DNA of 42,654 nt, taken from an uncultured SAR324 cluster bacterium. GTDB taxonomy: Bacteria; SAR324; NAC60-12. This document shows, piece by piece, positions 2,518-15,848 of the stretch. The stretch spans positions 1 through 42,654 of the forward strand of contig CACIWU010000006.1 in the NCBI GenBank assembly GCA_902590435.1. The letters are read 5' to 3'. A model generated the notes under the pieces. It was given only the letters and a program-made list of their open reading frames with translations, was not told the origin of the DNA and made no database searches. Position 1 is the first letter of the stretch; every line of letters begins with the position of its first letter. A program made the position numbers and the translations under genes.

Positions 2518-4590
2518 TCAAGTGAGGAGTTTACGTAATTCTTCTACTGATTGAACAGGGATTTTACATGATTTATTTTGGCAGACATAGGCAGTTGCAA
2601 TATCATTAACCATCGATCTCCCTGATGTAAGTGGGATGATTTTTTCCGTTTCTATATTTTTACCGTTTTCCAGAAAAGAAACTACTATATTTGGATGATA
2701 TCCTCTCCGCAGCTCGGCTAATAAAAGGTCTGTTTTATCTTCACCACGTATTCCAGAAATGACAATTTCTTTTGGCTGTGAAAGACTGAAATGTAAGCCG
2801 CCCAGCATTGCGGAAAAGCTAACTCCAGCTTGTTCCATCTGTATAGCAAAACTTTGAAAGATTCTCTGCGCATCCTCATGAAACTTTGAAGAAAGACCAT
2901 AAGCATGAAGTCTCAGAAACGCATGAGCTAGACTACTGTTACCAGAAGGTTCTACGCCATCATAACCTTCGGCATTACGTGTAAGCAAAACTTCTCCGTC
3001 ATTTCCTGAGTCAAAATAAGGTCCATCAGCGTTTCGAAAAAGGCGATTAGTTTCTTTTGATAATTCAGTTGCTTTTAAAAACCATGCAGTATCATAAGTA
3101 GTTTCGTAGAGGTCTAAACAGGATACAGTAAGTTGGGCATAGTCACAAAGGTATGCTGGGAATCTAGATTCTCCTTGACGCCATCGACGCAATAATCTAC
3201 CGGTATTATCGAATAAATTATTGAAAATAAAATTAGCAGCACGAGTTGCCTTTTTTTCAAATTCAGCATCGTTTAAAACACGAGATGCTCGAGCAAAGGA
3301 AGAAATCATCAAAGCATTCCACGAAGTTAAAACTTTATCATCCAAAAAAGGGCGTATACGTTTGGAACGAACAGTCATTAATTTTTTACGAGCAGTTTGT
3401 ATTTTACCCTGCATTTCTTTAAGAGTTATCCGAAATCTTTTGGCTACAAATTCATCGGAATACTTGCGATTTAGAATACTACTTCCTTCAAAATTCCCAT
3501 CCTTTGAAATGTCCCAGAAAAAGCATGCTAATTCTCCAATTTCCTTACCTAAAATTTCTATGACTTCTGCTTGAGACCAGATATAAAATTTACCTTCGAC
3601 ACCTTCACTGTCAGCGTCTTCTGCTGAAAAGAAAGCACCTTCTGAAGAAGTCATATCTCGCGAAATATAATCTAGAACATCTCGAATAATGGTTTCATAT
3701 AGATGATTTTTTGTGATTTGGAAAGTTTCGATTAAGGCCCAGACAAATAAAGAATTGTCGTAAAGCATTTTCTCGAAATGTGGGACAAGCCATTCATAAT
3801 CTGTACTGTAACGACTTATTCCTCCACCAAGTTGATCATAAATTCCACCCGCAAACATTTTTTGTAAAGTTTTTTCAACCATTTCAAGGGAATGAGCTTC
3901 ACCTGTTCTTTTATAATTCCGAAGCAAAAGCATCAATCCCATACTTGGTGGAAACTTATTTTGAGGTTGATGATTGAAACCACCGTTTATTGAATCAAAA
4001 GCATCCCTAAATTGAGAAACTGTTTTTTCTTCTATTTCCCAGTTAAATTCAATAAATTCGGTAGTGGGAGGAACAGCTATTTTTTCTAAATGAGAAGTCA
4101 GCTGATTGGCAGTTAAAAATATTTTTTCACGTTCATCTTTCCATACTTTGGCTAGGCTTTCCAACATTTCCCTGAAAGATATTCTCCCATACATTGGTTG
4201 AGGAGGGAAATAGGTTCCGCCAGTAACTGGCTTACCTTCCGGAGTTATAAACATATTCAGTGGCCACCCGCCTTGCTGTCCTAGAGCGTGAAGTGCATCC
4301 ATGTAAATTTTATCGACATCCGGACGTTCTTCTCTGTCTACTTTAACAGATACAAAATGAGCATTTAGAAATTCAGCTAATTCTGAATCTTCAAATGATT
4401 CTCTTTCCATTACATGACACCAGTGGCATGTCGCATAGCCGATGCTGATCAACAATAATTTATCTTCATTTTTAGCTTTTTGAAAAGCGATCTCCCCCCA
4501 TGGATGCCAGTCAACAGGATTATGAGCATGCTGGAGAAGGTAAGGACTTTTTTCTTTTATCAGTTTATTACTGAAAGAATAGATTGTCAT
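2518..4590 (-). CDS. thioredoxin domain-containing protein, DUF255/YyaL (spermatogenesis-associated protein 20-like)
   Basis: 690 aa; [72 protein letters not shown]. Confidence 0.95.
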
Positions 4591-5696: not shown

Positions 5697-6821
5697 CTAT
5701 TCTCCTATTAAATCTTTCCACCATTTTTCAAAGACATTTTGACTTTCGGTTGATACTAATTGACCAAGTTTTGGAGTCATTAGTTTAATTCCGTATTTTT
5801 CTGTATATTTTTCAATTTCCTCAACTGGCTCAAACCAATCATGTAGAGATAGATTGAACATTCCCCAATGAATTGGAACCATAGCTTTGCCATTTAGGTC
5901 CAGAACAGCTCGTACAGCTTCTTCAGGCATATTATGAACTTCACGCCATCTTTCATTGTATTGACCACTATCAATAAAAGCTAAATCAAATGGCCCATAT
6001 TTGTCTCCAATTCTTTTGTAATGAATATCGTAACCGGAATCACCATTGAAGTAAAAACTGTTAGATTCAGTTTTAACTATCCACGAAGCCCAAAGAGTTT
6101 TAGAAACCTTAATGGTTCCTAATCTTCCAGAAAAGTGTTGTGCTGGAGTACAAATAAAAGTTATTCCTTCAAATTCTAATTTGCCCCACCAATCTTTTTC
6201 AAACAATTTTGATTCATGTATACCCCATCTTTTCAAATGAGAGGTTACTCCTAGAGGAGCAATAAATTTTACATCTTTTTTCTTGAAGAAGAGCATTGTG
6301 TCCATGTCTAAGTGATCATAATGATCATGTGAAATTAAAACGTAATCAATTTGCGGCAAATCTCGAAGTTTTAAAACTGGTGGTTGAAATCGCTCTACAA
6401 GAAAGCTAACAGGCGACGCTGCTTTAGAAAAAACAGGATCTATAAGAATAATAGTATTATTTATATTAACCAAAAGAGAGGAGTGTCCAAACCATATGAA
6501 TTTGATATCTTCGGTATCCTTCAAAAATTCTTTTATGTTCGGGGGGTTAACTTCTGGGAGCTTAGTTTTAGGAACAGTTACTGCGGAGTTAAAAAAATAA
6601 TTATTGGAAATTCTTTTTTTAGTATTATCCCAAAATGAGTCTTTTTCCCTCATCTTATCAAAAATATTTTCTATCCTATTCATGAATCTTTCTTTTTCTT
6701 TGTCGTAATTAGGTGATTGTTTTATTTTTTCTAGATGTTCCCCACTGGGATTTTCTCCAAATTGAGAACAAGACGTTAGGAAAAATAATATACTCAAAAT
6801 AATTAGAAAACTTTTATTCAT
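5697..6821 (-). CDS. MBL-fold metallo-hydrolase, NAPE-PLD/UlaG-like, predicted lipoprotein
   Basis: lipobox LTSC near N-terminus; ISHDHYDHLD metal motif; FIWFGHSSLLVNI; VPIHWGMF. Confidence 0.9.
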   Translation of the reverse strand: MNKSFLIILSILFFLTSCSQFGENPSGEHLEKIKQSPNYDKEKERFMNRIENIFDKMREKDSFWDNTKKRISNNYFFNSAVTVPKTKLPEVNPPNIKEFLKDTEDIKFIWFGHSSLLVNINNTIILIDPVFSKAASPVSFLVERFQPPVLKLRDLPQIDYVLISHDHYDHLDMDTMLFFKKKDVKFIAPLGVTSHLKRWGIHESKLFEKDWWGKLEFEGITFICTPAQHFSGRLGTIKVSKTLWASWIVKTESNSFYFNGDSGYDIHYKRIGDKYGPFDLAFIDSGQYNERWREVHNMPEEAVRAVLDLNGKAMVPIHWGMFNLSLHDWFEPVEEIEKYTEKYGIKLMTPKLGQLVSTESQNVFEKWWKDLIGE

Positions 6822-6859: not shown

Positions 6860-9025
6860 TTATTTGTTATCCATATAGTTAATTCCTTGCCAATTTTCAG
6901 AATCCCAACCACTAGAGAGAATTTTTTGACAACGGGCAACGTATAGTTCACCCACATGGTCTTCAGGAAATTTTTCAAGATATTTTCTAAACAATTCTAA
7001 GGCATTTTCAAACTTCTGATTTTGGTAAAGTTCAAAACATTTTTTAAAGTTTGGAAGCATAGAAATCTTTATTTTCCTTAAATCTGGAGTCTCCCCATTC
7101 AATACCTCGTGAACCATTATAGGTTTTACTTTCCCTTTTACAGCAACCTTGTCAATTAAACGCGTTTCAAAAATTGAATCTTCAATCTTTAAAAGAGTTT
7201 CACCACTGATAAGTAGGGGAGTTTTGTAAAGTTTAGTAAGACCTTCCAACCTTGCAGCAATATTTACTGCATCACTAATTACTGATCCTTCCATTCGATC
7301 TGATTCACCTAGAGTACCTAACATCATCATCCCCGTATTAACTCCTATTCCTATTCGAATGGGATCATTACCTTCTCTAATTCTTACTTTATTGTATTCT
7401 CGAAGTGCATCAAGCATTTTTACTGAAGTTCTTACTGCGTCGTCAGGAGATTTTTCAAAAAGTGCCATGATAGCGTCACCTATAAACTTATCTATGTACC
7501 CATTATTTTCCCGGACAATTGGTCCCATTTTGCTTAGATATGTATTTACGAATTTAAAATTTTCTTCAGGTAACATTGATTCAGAAAGAGAAGTAAATGA
7601 ACGAATATCAGAAAAAAGGATACTCATTTCCTTTTGAACTTGATCTCCTAACTGAACGTCAAGGATGCTATCTTTGTTTAGGTTTGTGAGAAGCTGTTTT
7701 GGAACGAAACGTTGATAAGCTTCTGTCAGGAGCATTTGTTGTTCTAGAGCAAAATTCTTCAAATCGTTAATACTTTGAGCTACAGCAAATCCGAAAGTTA
7801 TGAACATTGACAAAAATAATAGACCTCCCGCAGTAGAAATTGTTAACATGAATTTCCAATTAAATCCATCAAATAGAAGATAAACTGCTAAACCAATAGG
7901 TAAAACTAAAAAAGGTAAAATAAAAGAAAGACAGAGATAACCAGCTGCAGAATTTCCTTTTTTCCACTGGACAAAGGAAATAATAATTGAAAGGATCAGC
8001 AACAATACAAATGGTATAATTGTGTAATGGAATTTTATAATTCCTGGTCCTAAATTGTCTGGAGGGAATTTTATTAAGTCTAGGTTTTCTTCATGTGGCC
8101 AACTTAAAGAAGTACAAAAGTTGAGAATTATTATTAATCCATAAAAAGTAACTCCAAGCAAAAATAATTTGTTTATTTTTGGGAAATTTTGCTTTAGATT
8201 TAGTGCTTTCTTAAAAAATGTTATTAAAAATACAAATAATAAGCCCTGAAATACAAATAGTATTTCACTAATTGCAAACCAGCGAGAAAGCCCCAGATAC
8301 ATTCCATTTGATTGAGTAAAAAAAACTAATGCTGATGCTTGTATCAAGGAAAGGAAAAGCCAAAGATAATTACCTTTTGAAACAAGATAAATGAAAAAAT
8401 AATATAATCCGAAAGATATAGCAACAGCAATGAATCCAATATTACTTGAGAATCTTACTAATTCTCTAAGTCTAATGTCTTTCCACAATCCTATTGTCAT
8501 TCGGTCAAGACCATTAACCATGGCATAATAGCGGTCAAATGGTTTACTTCTGAAAAAGTTATAGATTATCGTATTCTCATTTTTAGGCATTAAAATCCTG
8601 TATTGTGCTCCTATATGTTCTTGTCCTACAAAATTATGTTCTCGGTGCTTCCAATAAGGGAATTCTTTCACTCCTAATGAGTTTTTTACATATAGCTTTT
8701 TCTCCATATTCCAATTGTGATTTAGACCAATGACATTTGATTCTAAATTGTTCCTTACGATAAACTTAACCCAATATCCATCAACTATAGATTGAGCATT
8801 TAACAATTTTTTTGTCCATGTAGCATTCTCTAGTACTTCAAAAGGTATTTTATAATCTAAACCTTCAAGAAATGTTAAATTATTTGCAGGGATAGTTTCT
8901 AGTATTGTGGTATCTAACAAAAATGGATCTTGTGCAAAAGTATTTTTACTACTAACAAAAAATATTAATGTTAATATTAGCAAAATTAATTTTTTTGTTA
9001 GAAAAAATTCCAAATATTTTATCAT
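6860..9025 (-). CDS. class III adenylate/guanylate cyclase with N-terminal 7TMR-DISM-like sensor and membrane domain
   Basis: 721 aa; signal peptide, extracellular region WVKFIVRNNLES..., about seven hydrophobic helices, then MSILFSDIRSFTSLSE...DKFIGDAIMALF...GIGVNTG cyclase catalytic domain. Confidence 0.92.
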   Translation of the reverse strand: MIKYLEFFLTKKLILLILTLIFFVSSKNTFAQDPFLLDTTILETIPANNLTFLEGLDYKIPFEVLENATWTKKLLNAQSIVDGYWVKFIVRNNLESNVIGLNHNWNMEKKLYVKNSLGVKEFPYWKHREHNFVGQEHIGAQYRILMPKNENTIIYNFFRSKPFDRYYAMVNGLDRMTIGLWKDIRLRELVRFSSNIGFIAVAISFGLYYFFIYLVSKGNYLWLFLSLIQASALVFFTQSNGMYLGLSRWFAISEILFVFQGLLFVFLITFFKKALNLKQNFPKINKLFLLGVTFYGLIIILNFCTSLSWPHEENLDLIKFPPDNLGPGIIKFHYTIIPFVLLLILSIIISFVQWKKGNSAAGYLCLSFILPFLVLPIGLAVYLLFDGFNWKFMLTISTAGGLLFLSMFITFGFAVAQSINDLKNFALEQQMLLTEAYQRFVPKQLLTNLNKDSILDVQLGDQVQKEMSILFSDIRSFTSLSESMLPEENFKFVNTYLSKMGPIVRENNGYIDKFIGDAIMALFEKSPDDAVRTSVKMLDALREYNKVRIREGNDPIRIGIGVNTGMMMLGTLGESDRMEGSVISDAVNIAARLEGLTKLYKTPLLISGETLLKIEDSIFETRLIDKVAVKGKVKPIMVHEVLNGETPDLRKIKISMLPNFKKCFELYQNQKFENALELFRKYLEKFPEDHVGELYVARCQKILSSGWDSENWQGINYMDNK

Positions 9026-9127
9026 TATTCAAATATTAAAAATCTACTAAGTAAAAAAAATGATCATAAAAGATCTTGCTTAAGAATGAAAATACCAAAA
9101 ATTAGTTTCAAGGCAAAAATAGAGAAA

Positions 9128-9155
9128 TGGTGGAGGTGGCGGGAATCGAGCCCGC
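9128..9155 (-). repeat. partial copy of the tmRNA 3' end (T-arm, acceptor 3' strand and CCA); putative att remnant
   Basis: tggtggaggtggcgggaatcgagcccgc, 27/28 identical to 10744-10771, same orientation; no adjacent tmRNA body. Confidence 0.85.
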
Positions 9156-9256
9156 TACACCAAAGTGCATACAATTATTTTATATTATTAAATATAATTA
9201 GGCTGAGAAAATACTTAATGGGACAGAGTAATTTGATAAATTTATAATTTTTTGAT

Positions 9257-9562
9257 TTAAATAATTACTTCAAATCCTTCAAATTGAGGATGTTCAAGAT
9301 AAATATCACTATGTGCTCCTGCTCCTTTATGTGCTTTCCTAAAAGCTTCTGATTTAGTCCAATTCTCAAAATCCTTTCTGGATTCCCAAGTTGAGTGAGA
9401 AGCATATAAAGTGTGAGTTTCTTCAGTTTTGCCTTTTATTAAATTAAATTCAATAAAACCTGGTACATTATTAAGATGTGTTTCTCTTTTTGTCCAAATA
9501 TTTTCAAATTCAATCTCTCTGTTAATGTTAATTTTAAACCGGTTCATTGCTATAAATTTCAT
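9257..9562 (-). CDS. antibiotic biosynthesis monooxygenase (ABM) family protein, HmoA/IsdG-like
   Basis: 101 aa; MKFIAMNRFKI...FENIWTKRETHLNNVPGFIEFNLIKG...YASHSTWESRKDFENWTKSEAFRKAH. Confidence 0.85.
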   Translation of the reverse strand: MKFIAMNRFKININREIEFENIWTKRETHLNNVPGFIEFNLIKGKTEETHTLYASHSTWESRKDFENWTKSEAFRKAHKGAGAHSDIYLEHPQFEGFEVII

Positions 9563-9694
9563 TTTTTCTATTATAAATAAATAAATATTAAATCAAAAAA
9601 TCAGCTTAGATAAGCTTATTATTTCTGAAATTTGCTTCGTGCCTGCCAGTACTGAGGGAACATAATCACATACAAAATACGATTCCCAAAAAAA

Positions 9695-9964
9695 TTAATC
9701 TTTGAGAGGTATAATAACAGTCGACTCGACATCGGCTCCTGCTTCAATCCTTTTTTGAAGAATATCTGGTCTGGTTAACCATTCTCTCCCTTTTTCCATT
9801 GATTCAAATTCCAAGATCATGTGAACTTTTTTTTCATCGATGTCACAACCCTTGTAAATAAATTGCATTCCGGCTACTGATACCATTTCAGAGTTCAGAT
9901 CCTCTGCCATTTCATTCCAAGTATCCCATCCTTTTTTTATATTAACTGATACATATGCTTTCAT
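9695..9964 (-). CDS. small DUF3764-like / dimeric alpha-beta barrel-like protein
   Basis: 89 aa; KVHMILEFESMEKGREWLTRPDI similar in style to stress-responsive/ABM barrel proteins. Confidence 0.55.
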   Translation of the reverse strand: MKAYVSVNIKKGWDTWNEMAEDLNSEMVSVAGMQFIYKGCDIDEKKVHMILEFESMEKGREWLTRPDILQKRIEAGADVESTVIIPLKD

Positions 9965-10192
9965 AATGATCTTTCATAGTAAGAGATTAATAGTTGTTAT
10001 CTTGCCTCATATTGATTTATTATATATTAAATCAAATAGCCATTTACTCTTGCAAACCATATTATTATTTGTGGTAAAATAAAACCTTACAATCTATTAA
10101 TACGTTTTACTCTATCACTTGGAGGAGAGTGATTTTAAAATTAGATCTTATGGCGGAGAGTATCACTCAAGTGTGACTTAAGTAGCTAATTT

Positions 10193-10684
10193 TTAATCTA
10201 CGAACTCCATTATTTCTGAAACGGCTTCAATTCCTGTCAAGGCACAGAGTTCGTCTATGTCTGGTCTTGCCCCTGCAACTCCAACTCCACCATAAAAATT
10301 TCCAGCAAAAATTATAGGAACCCCACCAACAATTAGAAGTATATCTGGAGCAAAGCTCAAATCACTCCTTCTAGGTGCTATTTCTGAAGTTTTCGTGCGT
10401 AAGGTTGCGGATGAGAATGCCTTTTGCTTGCTAACTTTAATTGTGTGTACACCGGAAAGTGGATTTCTCAGAAAAGCAGCAAGATTTCCGTTACGATCCA
10501 CTACTGCAGCAGAGACCAAATACCCGCGCTTGACACAATCTTCAACAGCAGCATGAACTATTTTATGAGCGATATGGTGCGCTAGAACCCTAAGTTGAAT
10601 AATTGGTTCTTTTTCGTCAGGAAATGATTTTAATGGCAATAAAAGCAAAAGTAAAAAAAGAAATTGTTTTTTTATGCTATACAA
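10193..10684 (-). CDS. GlcG/HbpS-like (haem-degrading/binding domain) secreted protein
   Basis: signal peptide FLFLLLLLLPLKSF; SAAVVDRNGNLAAFLRNPLSGVHTIKVSKQKAFSSATLRTKTSE; GGVPIIFAGNFYGGVGVAGARPDID. Confidence 0.9.
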   Translation of the reverse strand: MYSIKKQFLFLLLLLLPLKSFPDEKEPIIQLRVLAHHIAHKIVHAAVEDCVKRGYLVSAAVVDRNGNLAAFLRNPLSGVHTIKVSKQKAFSSATLRTKTSEIAPRRSDLSFAPDILLIVGGVPIIFAGNFYGGVGVAGARPDIDELCALTGIEAVSEIMEFVD

Positions 10685-10743
10685 AATATTAACTCCTAGA
10701 TTTATGTTGATACATCAGCAAGGTAAGTCGAAAATTAGTGGTA

Positions 10744-11118
10744 TGGTGGAGGTGGCGGGAATCGAACCCGCGTCTTACTTAGTTTCCAAATGGGCTTCTA
10801 CAAGTTTAGTTGGAATTTTTCAAATTCTTCAGAAATGTTGGCAACCAACCTCCTCAATCTGAAATACCTCCTTAAATCTCGCTAAAGCTATGGAGGATAA
10901 CAGTAGCTAGCCTGACTTAAATGACATCCTTCGTCACGTTTCAGGCAAACACAACGAAGAACGCCTACTTCAACTATGCCGCAAGAGCGACAGGAGCAGG
11001 TGAATAGTCAGCGTTGTTTGCAGCTAACATTTTAATGATCGTTTTTACGTGACCCCGATCATTACCCACGACTTGCTTCCCAAATTTTCCACTAGCAATC
11101 GAAATCCATGACACCCCC
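10744..11118 (-). ncRNA. ssrA: transfer-messenger RNA (tmRNA, one-piece), tag peptide ANNADYSPAPVALAA
   Basis: 5' GGGGGTGTCATGGATTTCGATTGC and 3' GCGGGTTCGATTCCCGCCACCTCCACCA; 7-bp acceptor stem GGGGGUG/CACCUCC; CCA encoded; tag ORF GCA AAC AAC GCT GAC TAT TCA CCT GCT CCT GTC GCT CTT GCG GCA TAG at 10974-11021 (minus). Confidence 0.97.
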
Positions 11119-13610: not shown

Positions 13611-15848
13611 CTAAAAATTAGAGAGAAGATTATTAAAGGTTTTACTAGGCCTCATATTTTCAGTTACTTTTTTTTCATCGGGATTAAAATATCCTCCCAA
13701 ATCAACTGAAGTCCCTTGTGCTTCGTTTAATTCATTTATAATTTCAGTCTCTTTTTCCCTTAAAACTTTTGCCAGTTCAAAGAATCTATTTTTAAGTTCT
13801 TTGTCTTCTTTCTGATGAGAAAGTGCTTCTGCCCAATACAAGGCTAGATAGAAATGACTACCACGATTATCAAGTTCATTAACTTTTCTTGATGGTGATT
13901 TGTTGTTATTTAAAAATTTTTCGATTGCTTGGTTTAGTGTTTTAGAAAAAACTTCTGCCTTGTAATTATCAGCAAATTTAGCGAGATGATTAAAAGATTC
14001 TGCAATTGCTAAAAATTCTCCTAGTGAATCCCATCTCAAATGACCTTCTTTTAAAAATTGTTGTACATGTTTTGGCGCAGATCCTCCTGCTCCTGTTTCA
14101 AATAAGCCGCCTCCATTCATCAAAGAAATTATTGAAAGCATTTTTGAACTAGTTCCTAATTCAATGATGGGATAAAGATCAGTATTATAATCCCGAAGAA
14201 CGTTACCAGTGACGGAGATTATGTTTTTTTTATTTCGAATTGTTTCGATGGTTAATTTTGCTGCTTCGTAAATTGAAAGAATATTTATTTCAAGTCCTTC
14301 AGTATCTTCATCTTTTAAAAAAGTCTTAACTTTCTTTATAAGTTCTCTTCCGTGAGCACGTTTATCATCAAGCCAGAATATAGCAGGCCACCCTGTGATA
14401 CTAGCCCTTCTAAGAGCAAGTTTTACCCATTCTTTTATTGGAGAATCCTTAACAGAAGACATACGCCAAATATCTCCTTCATCAACATTATGTTCATGAA
14501 TGATTTGACCATGATCATCAGTGATACAAATCTTTCCCTTTCCTGGAGCTACAAAAGTGGTAGAGTGAGAGCCATATTCCTCTGCTTTCTTGGCCATCAA
14601 TCCTACATTTTGTACGGTACCAATTGTTGTCGGGTCAAGAGCACCATTTTTAATACAATTCTCAATGGTGGCAGTATAAAGTGGTGCATAACTTGAGTCA
14701 GGAATAATGAATTTTGTATCGTGAAGGTTACCATCCTTTCCATACATTTTCCCAGATGCTCTAATTGCTGCAGCTAAAGAGGCATCTATAATGATATTGT
14801 TAGGGACATGTAAATTTGTTATTCCTAAGTATGAATCTACCATTGCTAACTCTGGACGATGATCATAAAGATCTTCAATGTCAGATTCAATTTTAGATTT
14901 TATTTCAGGAGTTATTTCCTTGTCATTTTTTATTTTTTCATATAGCTCACCAATGCCGTTATTGAAATTTATTCCAAGATTTTCAATTATATCTTTATAT
15001 TTTTTAAAAACAGGATCATAGAAAATTCTAACAAAATTTCCAAAAATAATTGGATCAGAAACTTTCATCATCGTTGCTTTCAAATGCAAAGAAAAAAGTA
15101 CTCCCTTTTTTTTTGCATCATGAATTTGCATTACAACAAAATCATCAAGTTCTTTTTTGCTCATAAATGTAGCATCAACTACTTCACCAACTTCAAAATG
15201 AAGGTTTTCTTTTAGTAAAATAATTTTATCTTTATTTGAGATGAATTCTATTTTAGCTTTGGTAGGATTTTGAATTGTAGTTGATTTTTCGTTTGAAAAA
15301 AAATCACCTTTGTTCATTGTTGATACATGTGACTTTGAATCACTTTTCCACTCAGACATTTTATGAGGGTGCATTTTAACGTAATTTTTTACAGTTTCTG
15401 CAACCCTTCGATCAGAATTACCTTCACGGAGGACAGGATTGACTGCGCTTCCTAATATTTTAGAGTATCGAATTTTATAATTCTTTTCTTTATCGTTCTG
15501 GGGATCATCTTTATAATCTGGAAGATCAAATCCTTGTGATTTAAGTTCAGATATTGCTTCTTTTAGTTGAGGAACGGAAGCACTTATATTAGGAAGTTTA
15601 ATGATATTAGCTTCGGGCATTTGAGTTAATTCTGCGAGCTCCTTAAGTCCGTTTGGTACTTTCTTAAATTCGTCTAACCTTTCTGGGAAAGAGGAAAGAA
15701 TTCTTTTTGCCAAGGAAATATCTTTTATCTCAAAAGAAATGTCTGTGCCTTTTGTATAACTATGGAGTATTGGAAGGAATGAGTAACTGGCAAGCATTGG
15801 AGCTTCATCGGTTTTAGTCCAAATTATTTTATCTATCTTTTTATTCAT
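13611..15848 (-). CDS. icd: monomeric NADP-dependent isocitrate dehydrogenase
   Basis: 745 aa; [53 protein letters not shown]-like [49 protein letters not shown]. Confidence 0.96.

Follow-up and report, generated by a model that had tools for sequence, protein, structure and literature searches.

A probable remnant of a tyrosine-integrase island with mixed cargo at the 3′ end of ssrA in a SAR324-cluster bacterium

The 3′ end of the tmRNA gene (ssrA) of a SAR324-cluster bacterium was found to be duplicated, and the 1.6 kb enclosed between the two copies very probably represents the remnant of an ssrA-targeted tyrosine-integrase island that has kept its attR, has lost its left end and carries a cargo of mixed origin. 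The window, i.e. the whole stretch of 42,654 nt that was analysed, belongs to contig 6 of a 1.51-Mb metagenome-assembled genome with a completeness of 54%; SAR324 bacteria are, to our knowledge, uncultured. All window features described below lie on the minus strand. The first-pass annotation of this DNA had proposed a trapped mini-island, or a decayed island devoid of an integrase, at positions 9156–10743, and this proposal is supported by the attR, by the integrases present in relatives and by the lateral character of the cargo.

A single tmRNA gene was located at 10744–11118 by ARAGORN and by the Rfam model RF00023 in agreement (169.2 bits, full model, 1–374); it is intact, encodes the tag ANNADYSPAPVALAA and would be the target of integration. 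The att core at the gene (10744–10771), consisting of the T-arm, the acceptor strand and the CCA, recurs in the same orientation at 9128–9155 with 27 of 28 positions identical, and both copies terminate at an encoded CCA. The sole mismatch is found in the T loop, where GGGTTCGA of the tmRNA gene is replaced by GGGCTCGA in the displaced copy (T to C). The 1.51-Mb assembly contains the 28-mer in these two places only, no third copy being detected at up to three mismatches, and, judged by its sequence, a 28-mer with one mismatch is no chance match in an assembly of this size. The duplication of the tmRNA 3′ end, with the tmRNA body confined to the right copy, was thus confirmed, together with the presence of three ORFs between the copies (10193–10684, 9695–9964 and 9257–9562).

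On the evidence of its alignment, the copy at 9128–9155 is a genuine attR, since six further attR ends are homologous to it. A profile that excluded the window and was made from displaced copies of the same genus (G016 C41 and C63, G001 C137, both G014 copies and G010 C55; n = 6) matched positions 9128–9239 over its full length with 80.7 bits (E = 8e-23), whereas intact tmRNA genes scored about 25 bits, through the core alone. Beyond the core, the match is accounted for by an AT-rich attR arm (9156–9239), which is aligned with those of all six displaced copies, the att end being conserved over 118 nt between the window and its counterparts in the genus. This arm contains a candidate arm-type site of the integrase, CTGTCCCATTA (9216–9226), situated exactly 71 nt ahead of the core. 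The consensus CTGTMCCATTA starts at this distance in 6/6 of the intact-core copies compared (the window, G016 C41, G016 C63, G001 C137 and the two G014 copies), all of which are also conserved in the sequence ahead of the core, and the 11-mer occurs once in the window, against an expectation of 0.03. On the opposite side of the displaced core, the flank beyond the island (9105–9127) shares an exact 11-nt match, TGCCTTGAAAC, with the flank downstream of the tmRNA of G008, at an equal offset; this segment is a probable remnant of the old tmRNA flank.

The distribution of the 28-mer across the phylum is in line with such an origin. After removal of redundant contig ends, displaced tmRNA 3′ ends were detected in 8 of 52 phylum genomes, namely in G000 (the source of the window), G001, G014 (two copies), G016 (two), G020 (two), G022, G024 and G027, while a reversed-pattern control yielded zero matches in the same 52 genomes. 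The 28-mer is accordingly not a dispersed repeat: the displaced copies lie at island ends, and within the genus they share the 118-nt att end. Two further 28-mers, in G018 C16 and G039 C350, were not counted as displaced, since tmRNA sequence extends upstream of both. In another SAR324 genus, the displaced cores of G027 (C46, L179; 194–221) and G024 (C337, L182; 6194–6221) are accompanied by a different arm in which GTGGACACGT is repeated, which suggests that a second type of integrase may use the tmRNA target there. In G022 (C15, L070), a tmRNA-linked region of 10.4 kb, bounded at 4009–4268 and 14397–14656 by tmRNA 3′ ends together with the exact 232-nt repeat that follows them, carries what appear by eye to be helicase, DNA methylase, restriction-like and toxin-antitoxin-like genes. 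Since duplication and assembly error are indistinguishable for this island (core plus 232 nt of exact repeat), it was kept out of the argument.

The gene order icd-mdh-sucC-tmRNA upstream of the insertion point is conserved throughout the genus, while the sequence following it differs in every genome of the genus; relatives therefore do not share the arrangement of the window. In G001, the tmRNA is adjoined by an intact integrase of 602 aa with a PF00589 domain and an N-terminal DUF6538 domain, whose gene occupies +191 to +1999 relative to the tmRNA end. In G008 and G010, the 11-mer CTGTMCCATTA is present twice, at +53 and +67 from the tmRNA, and is followed by the start of a DUF6538 gene, which is a 73-aa relic in G008 and is interrupted by the contig end in G010. 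An integrase relic together with an AlpA-type regulator was found at the tmRNA of G005, and, at that of G019, the DUF6538 start of a gene truncated where the contig stops. The idea that relatives might carry an integrase at ssrA has thus been borne out.

Unlike in G008 and G010, the island side of the tmRNA junction in the window (10700–10743) has neither an arm site nor the start of an integrase gene. These 44 nt between the tmRNA and the GlcG block show no convincing match to the loci of the relatives compared, and no integrase ORF, integrase remnant or PF00589 match was detected within 9156–10743. Because the junction is devoid of both arm site and integrase, the left end, i.e. the arm sites and the integrase gene, is missing from the window. 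Comparison with the relatives suggests that this end was formerly present and was later lost, and the element as it stands is therefore probably immobile, or mobile only with the help of an integrase supplied in trans and a neighbouring att site. Variants of the double site (CTGTCCCAGTTGACCTGTCCCAGTA and TTGTACCATTACACTTGTACCATTG) were also noticed approximately 62 nt past the 3′ end of a tRNA-Ala gene and of another tRNA gene (G000:C2:12264-12288, L203; G007:C146:1633-1657, L210; G005:C3:726349-726373, L204), hinting that related integrases may target tRNA genes in the genus.

The following course of events would account for the present structure. A tyrosine-integrase island would have entered the tmRNA gene at its 3′ end, and the gene would have been completed by the 28 terminal nucleotides that the island itself brought, as happens with other tRNA/tmRNA islands. 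The old 3′ end would thereby have been displaced to the far side, where it would have been kept at 9128–9155 beside the right arm of the island. The left end, observed to be absent, would later have been lost together with the arm sites and the integrase gene, so that 1.6 kb would remain, with a cargo of mixed origin that comprises genes for an HbpS-like protein, an ABM-fold protein and a haem oxygenase.

An empty site, in which the tmRNA would be joined directly to the left flank, was not found in any relative, the best hint of one being the 11-nt match to the flank of the G008 tmRNA. The genes of the left flank (cyclase, MBL and DUF255) are located away from the tmRNA in all the relatives checked, and so do not identify the old chromosomal neighbour; the nearest genomes compared differ by 20–30% at the DNA level in core genes. 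The adenylate cyclase gene (6860–9025) and the MBL-fold gene (5697–6821), both on the minus strand, stay together in G008 and G025 and are also paired in SAR116 Alphaproteobacteria, there with an identity of about 50%; they likely represent a transferred two-gene unit. A close homologue of this adenylate cyclase is present in the SAR324 single cell AG-404-P05.

With respect to the cargo, the ORF nearest to the tmRNA (10193–10684, TTG start) encodes a GlcG/HbpS-like protein (PF03928, E = 1e-24), as annotated earlier, with an N-terminal hydrophobic, signal-like segment; its closest solved structures in the PDB are extracellular haem-binding proteins. The middle ORF (9695–9964) codes for a protein of 89 aa without a family match in Pfam or NCBIfam; even at E ≤ 10, Pfam did not return the DUF3764 label given to it earlier. 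The structural model (pLDDT 92) predicts a ferredoxin-like protein, for which Foldseek returned ABM and related folds, ABM-type folds being the nearest. The third product (9257–9562) had been labelled an ABM protein; it does match PF03992, but a more precise label is HmuQ-type haem-degrading monooxygenase, as the score to NF053649 is 152.6 bits against a curated cut-off of 130. Residues N7, W68 and H78, which are invariant across the aligned homologues, we take to be the IsdG-type catalytic triad (IsdG/IsdI). A haem theme, formed by the HmuQ-type oxygenase and the HbpS-like protein, is plausible from these assignments. No match to the cargo was obtained in PHROGs, so a phage origin is not indicated, and a search of IMG/VR with the arm-plus-core pattern gave no hits. 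The GlcG gene starts 59 nt past the tmRNA, with no terminator-like site on that strand in between (10685–10743); transcription from the tmRNA promoter may extend into cargo placed behind the gene.

All three cargo genes appear to have been moved laterally within the genus, given that they differ from their best relatives at 13–36% of four-fold sites, compared with 60–65% for core genes. The GlcG gene shares 94.9% nucleotide identity with that of G008, as opposed to 69.9% for sucC and 83.1% for the tmRNA of the same pair of genomes, and the corresponding four-fold-site differences are 14.9% for GlcG and 61.9% for sucC. In G008 this gene also lies behind the tmRNA, 3.1 kb away, and is followed by a partial core. 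The middle gene is 94% identical in nucleotide sequence to a G010 gene found at another location (13.3% four-fold-site differences), and the HmuQ gene differs from that of G016 at 35.7% of such sites. No conserved cluster of the three genes was found; in nearly every relative each of them stands alone among different neighbours, and this absence of synteny, along with the four-fold-site values, marks the content as foreign.

The nearest genome is different for each gene (G008 for GlcG, G010 for the middle gene, and G016 or G007 for HmuQ), and homology ends within tens of bases beyond each of them; for these reasons the cargo is probably a composite that arose by more than one insertion. The intergenic region 10007–10180 is made up of two repeats present elsewhere in the genus, block X (10112–10180), which also occurs upstream of a gene in G008 and in G001 C124, and repeat Y (10007–10116), which also precedes the last cargo gene of att-ended units in G008 and G016. 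It is quite possible, if short of probable, that a GlcG unit and a separate unit comprising repeat Y, the ABM-fold gene, HmuQ and the attR were stacked here and that the att site between them was erased. Such stacking would explain why the closest genome changes from gene to gene and homology breaks off so abruptly, and G008 offers a parallel in its partial core just past GlcG and its decayed attR past the next gene, yet no recognisable core remnant is present between 9990 and 10180. This history concerns the cargo and is compatible with an island remnant.

Small att-ended units of about 1.1–3.7 kb, mostly without an integrase, were detected in several relatives. In G014 C61, a single ORF lies between two cores that are 2.27 kb apart, and in G010 C55 an attR is followed, about 1.1 kb on, by a second, degenerate core, one ORF being present. 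In G008, an integrase relic opens a unit of 3.7 kb that is closed by the partial core after GlcG, and a decayed attR lies about 2.0 kb past this partial core, with one ORF between them. The G014 and G010 units are found on contigs separate from the tmRNA in their assemblies, and their position behind the tmRNA is a deduction. The window element might likewise never have had an integrase, being a cassette-like mini-unit of arrays that are laid down behind the tmRNA and moved by the integrase of a neighbour (cis-mobilizable). The integrase-less, single-ORF units of G014, G010 and G008 (2.27, ~1.1 and ~2.0 kb) speak for such a possibility, as do repeat Y upstream of the last cargo gene in three such units and, in the manner expected of tandem elements, the 87% identity between the flanks of the second, degenerate core of G010 and of the intact tmRNA of that genome. 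However, the tmRNA-proximal junction of the window is without any known arm site, so the element as it stands has no left att arm, and the G008 unit with the same GlcG gene opens with an integrase relic; we therefore consider this origin rather unlikely. More speculative still is the general view that SAR324 gathers one- or few-gene units without integrases, ending in a core and a conserved arm, into arrays at the tmRNA that are served by an integrase at the tmRNA end and resemble cassette arrays without integron parts.

In G016 and G018 the contig stops exactly at the tmRNA CCA, and in G004 and G014 it runs on for three more bases, as would be expected if more than one sequence follows the tmRNA in the sample; a hotspot at the tmRNA may explain why tmRNA-bearing contigs of SAR324 frequently end at the CCA. 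These contig ends also mark a point that is hard to assemble, and in a metagenome-assembled genome a chimeric join at the 28-nt repeat deserves consideration. A repeat of 28 nt is short for assembler k-mers, which speaks against a chimera, and core and arm match over their full length in the order found in other genomes, making an assembly artefact very improbable. A chance repeat, or a tmRNA pseudogene left by an unrelated duplication, might be suggested by the presence of just 28 nt of the tmRNA gene, but is hardly credible given that the copy terminates exactly at the CCA, in the orientation and on the side expected, and that its adjoining arm matches six independent attR ends, a profile match that contradicts this origin.

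An island remnant at ssrA is of practical interest for several reasons. SAR324 bacteria are abundant in the dark ocean, and a tmRNA hotspot with recognisable att ends helps to find genes that have recently been exchanged. The arm site and the 118-nt attR profile can reach integrase-less elements that are discarded by standard island finders, and the cargo points to haem handling, which would be plausible in iron-poor water.

Elements of this kind are already known in other bacteria, and the novelty is modest; no report of tmRNA islands in SAR324 was found in the literature searched. In the additive island fGI-2 of Ca. Methylopumilus, recurring tRNA 3′ ends mark the additions (PMC10872708), but the target there is tRNA-Lys and the lineage is unrelated, whereas here the target is the tmRNA. 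The closest in behaviour are the ssrA islands of Dehalococcoides, which use the 3′ end of single-copy ssrA, are flanked by 20-bp direct repeats and lie in tandem downstream of ssrA, 15 of them lacking an integration module and being suggested to be cis-mobilizable (PMC3146451). The ssrA 3′-end target and the short direct repeats of this end are shared. Dehalococcoides, however, relies on the serine recombinase DsiB and carries reductive dehalogenase cargo, while the SAR324 relatives have tyrosine integrases (PF00589, N-terminal DUF6538) and units of 1.1–3.7 kb; no integration module is present in the window, which sets it apart from an ssrA island of the Dehalococcoides type. In terms of a cis-mobilizable element (CIME), which keeps working attL and attR sites but has no integrase, the attR would be complete and the attL core present, with arm sites absent on the tmRNA side. 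With the tDNA islands catalogued by Islander, the element shares the anatomy of an intact tmRNA gene and, correctly ordered and oriented, a displaced 3′ fragment downstream (PMC4383910). Islander requires an integrase gene and a length of 2–200 kb (PMC4383910); with no integrase gene and 1.6 kb between the cores (<2 kb), the element would go unlisted, and because it fails these two filters it is best named a remnant or an integrase-less relative of tDNA islands.
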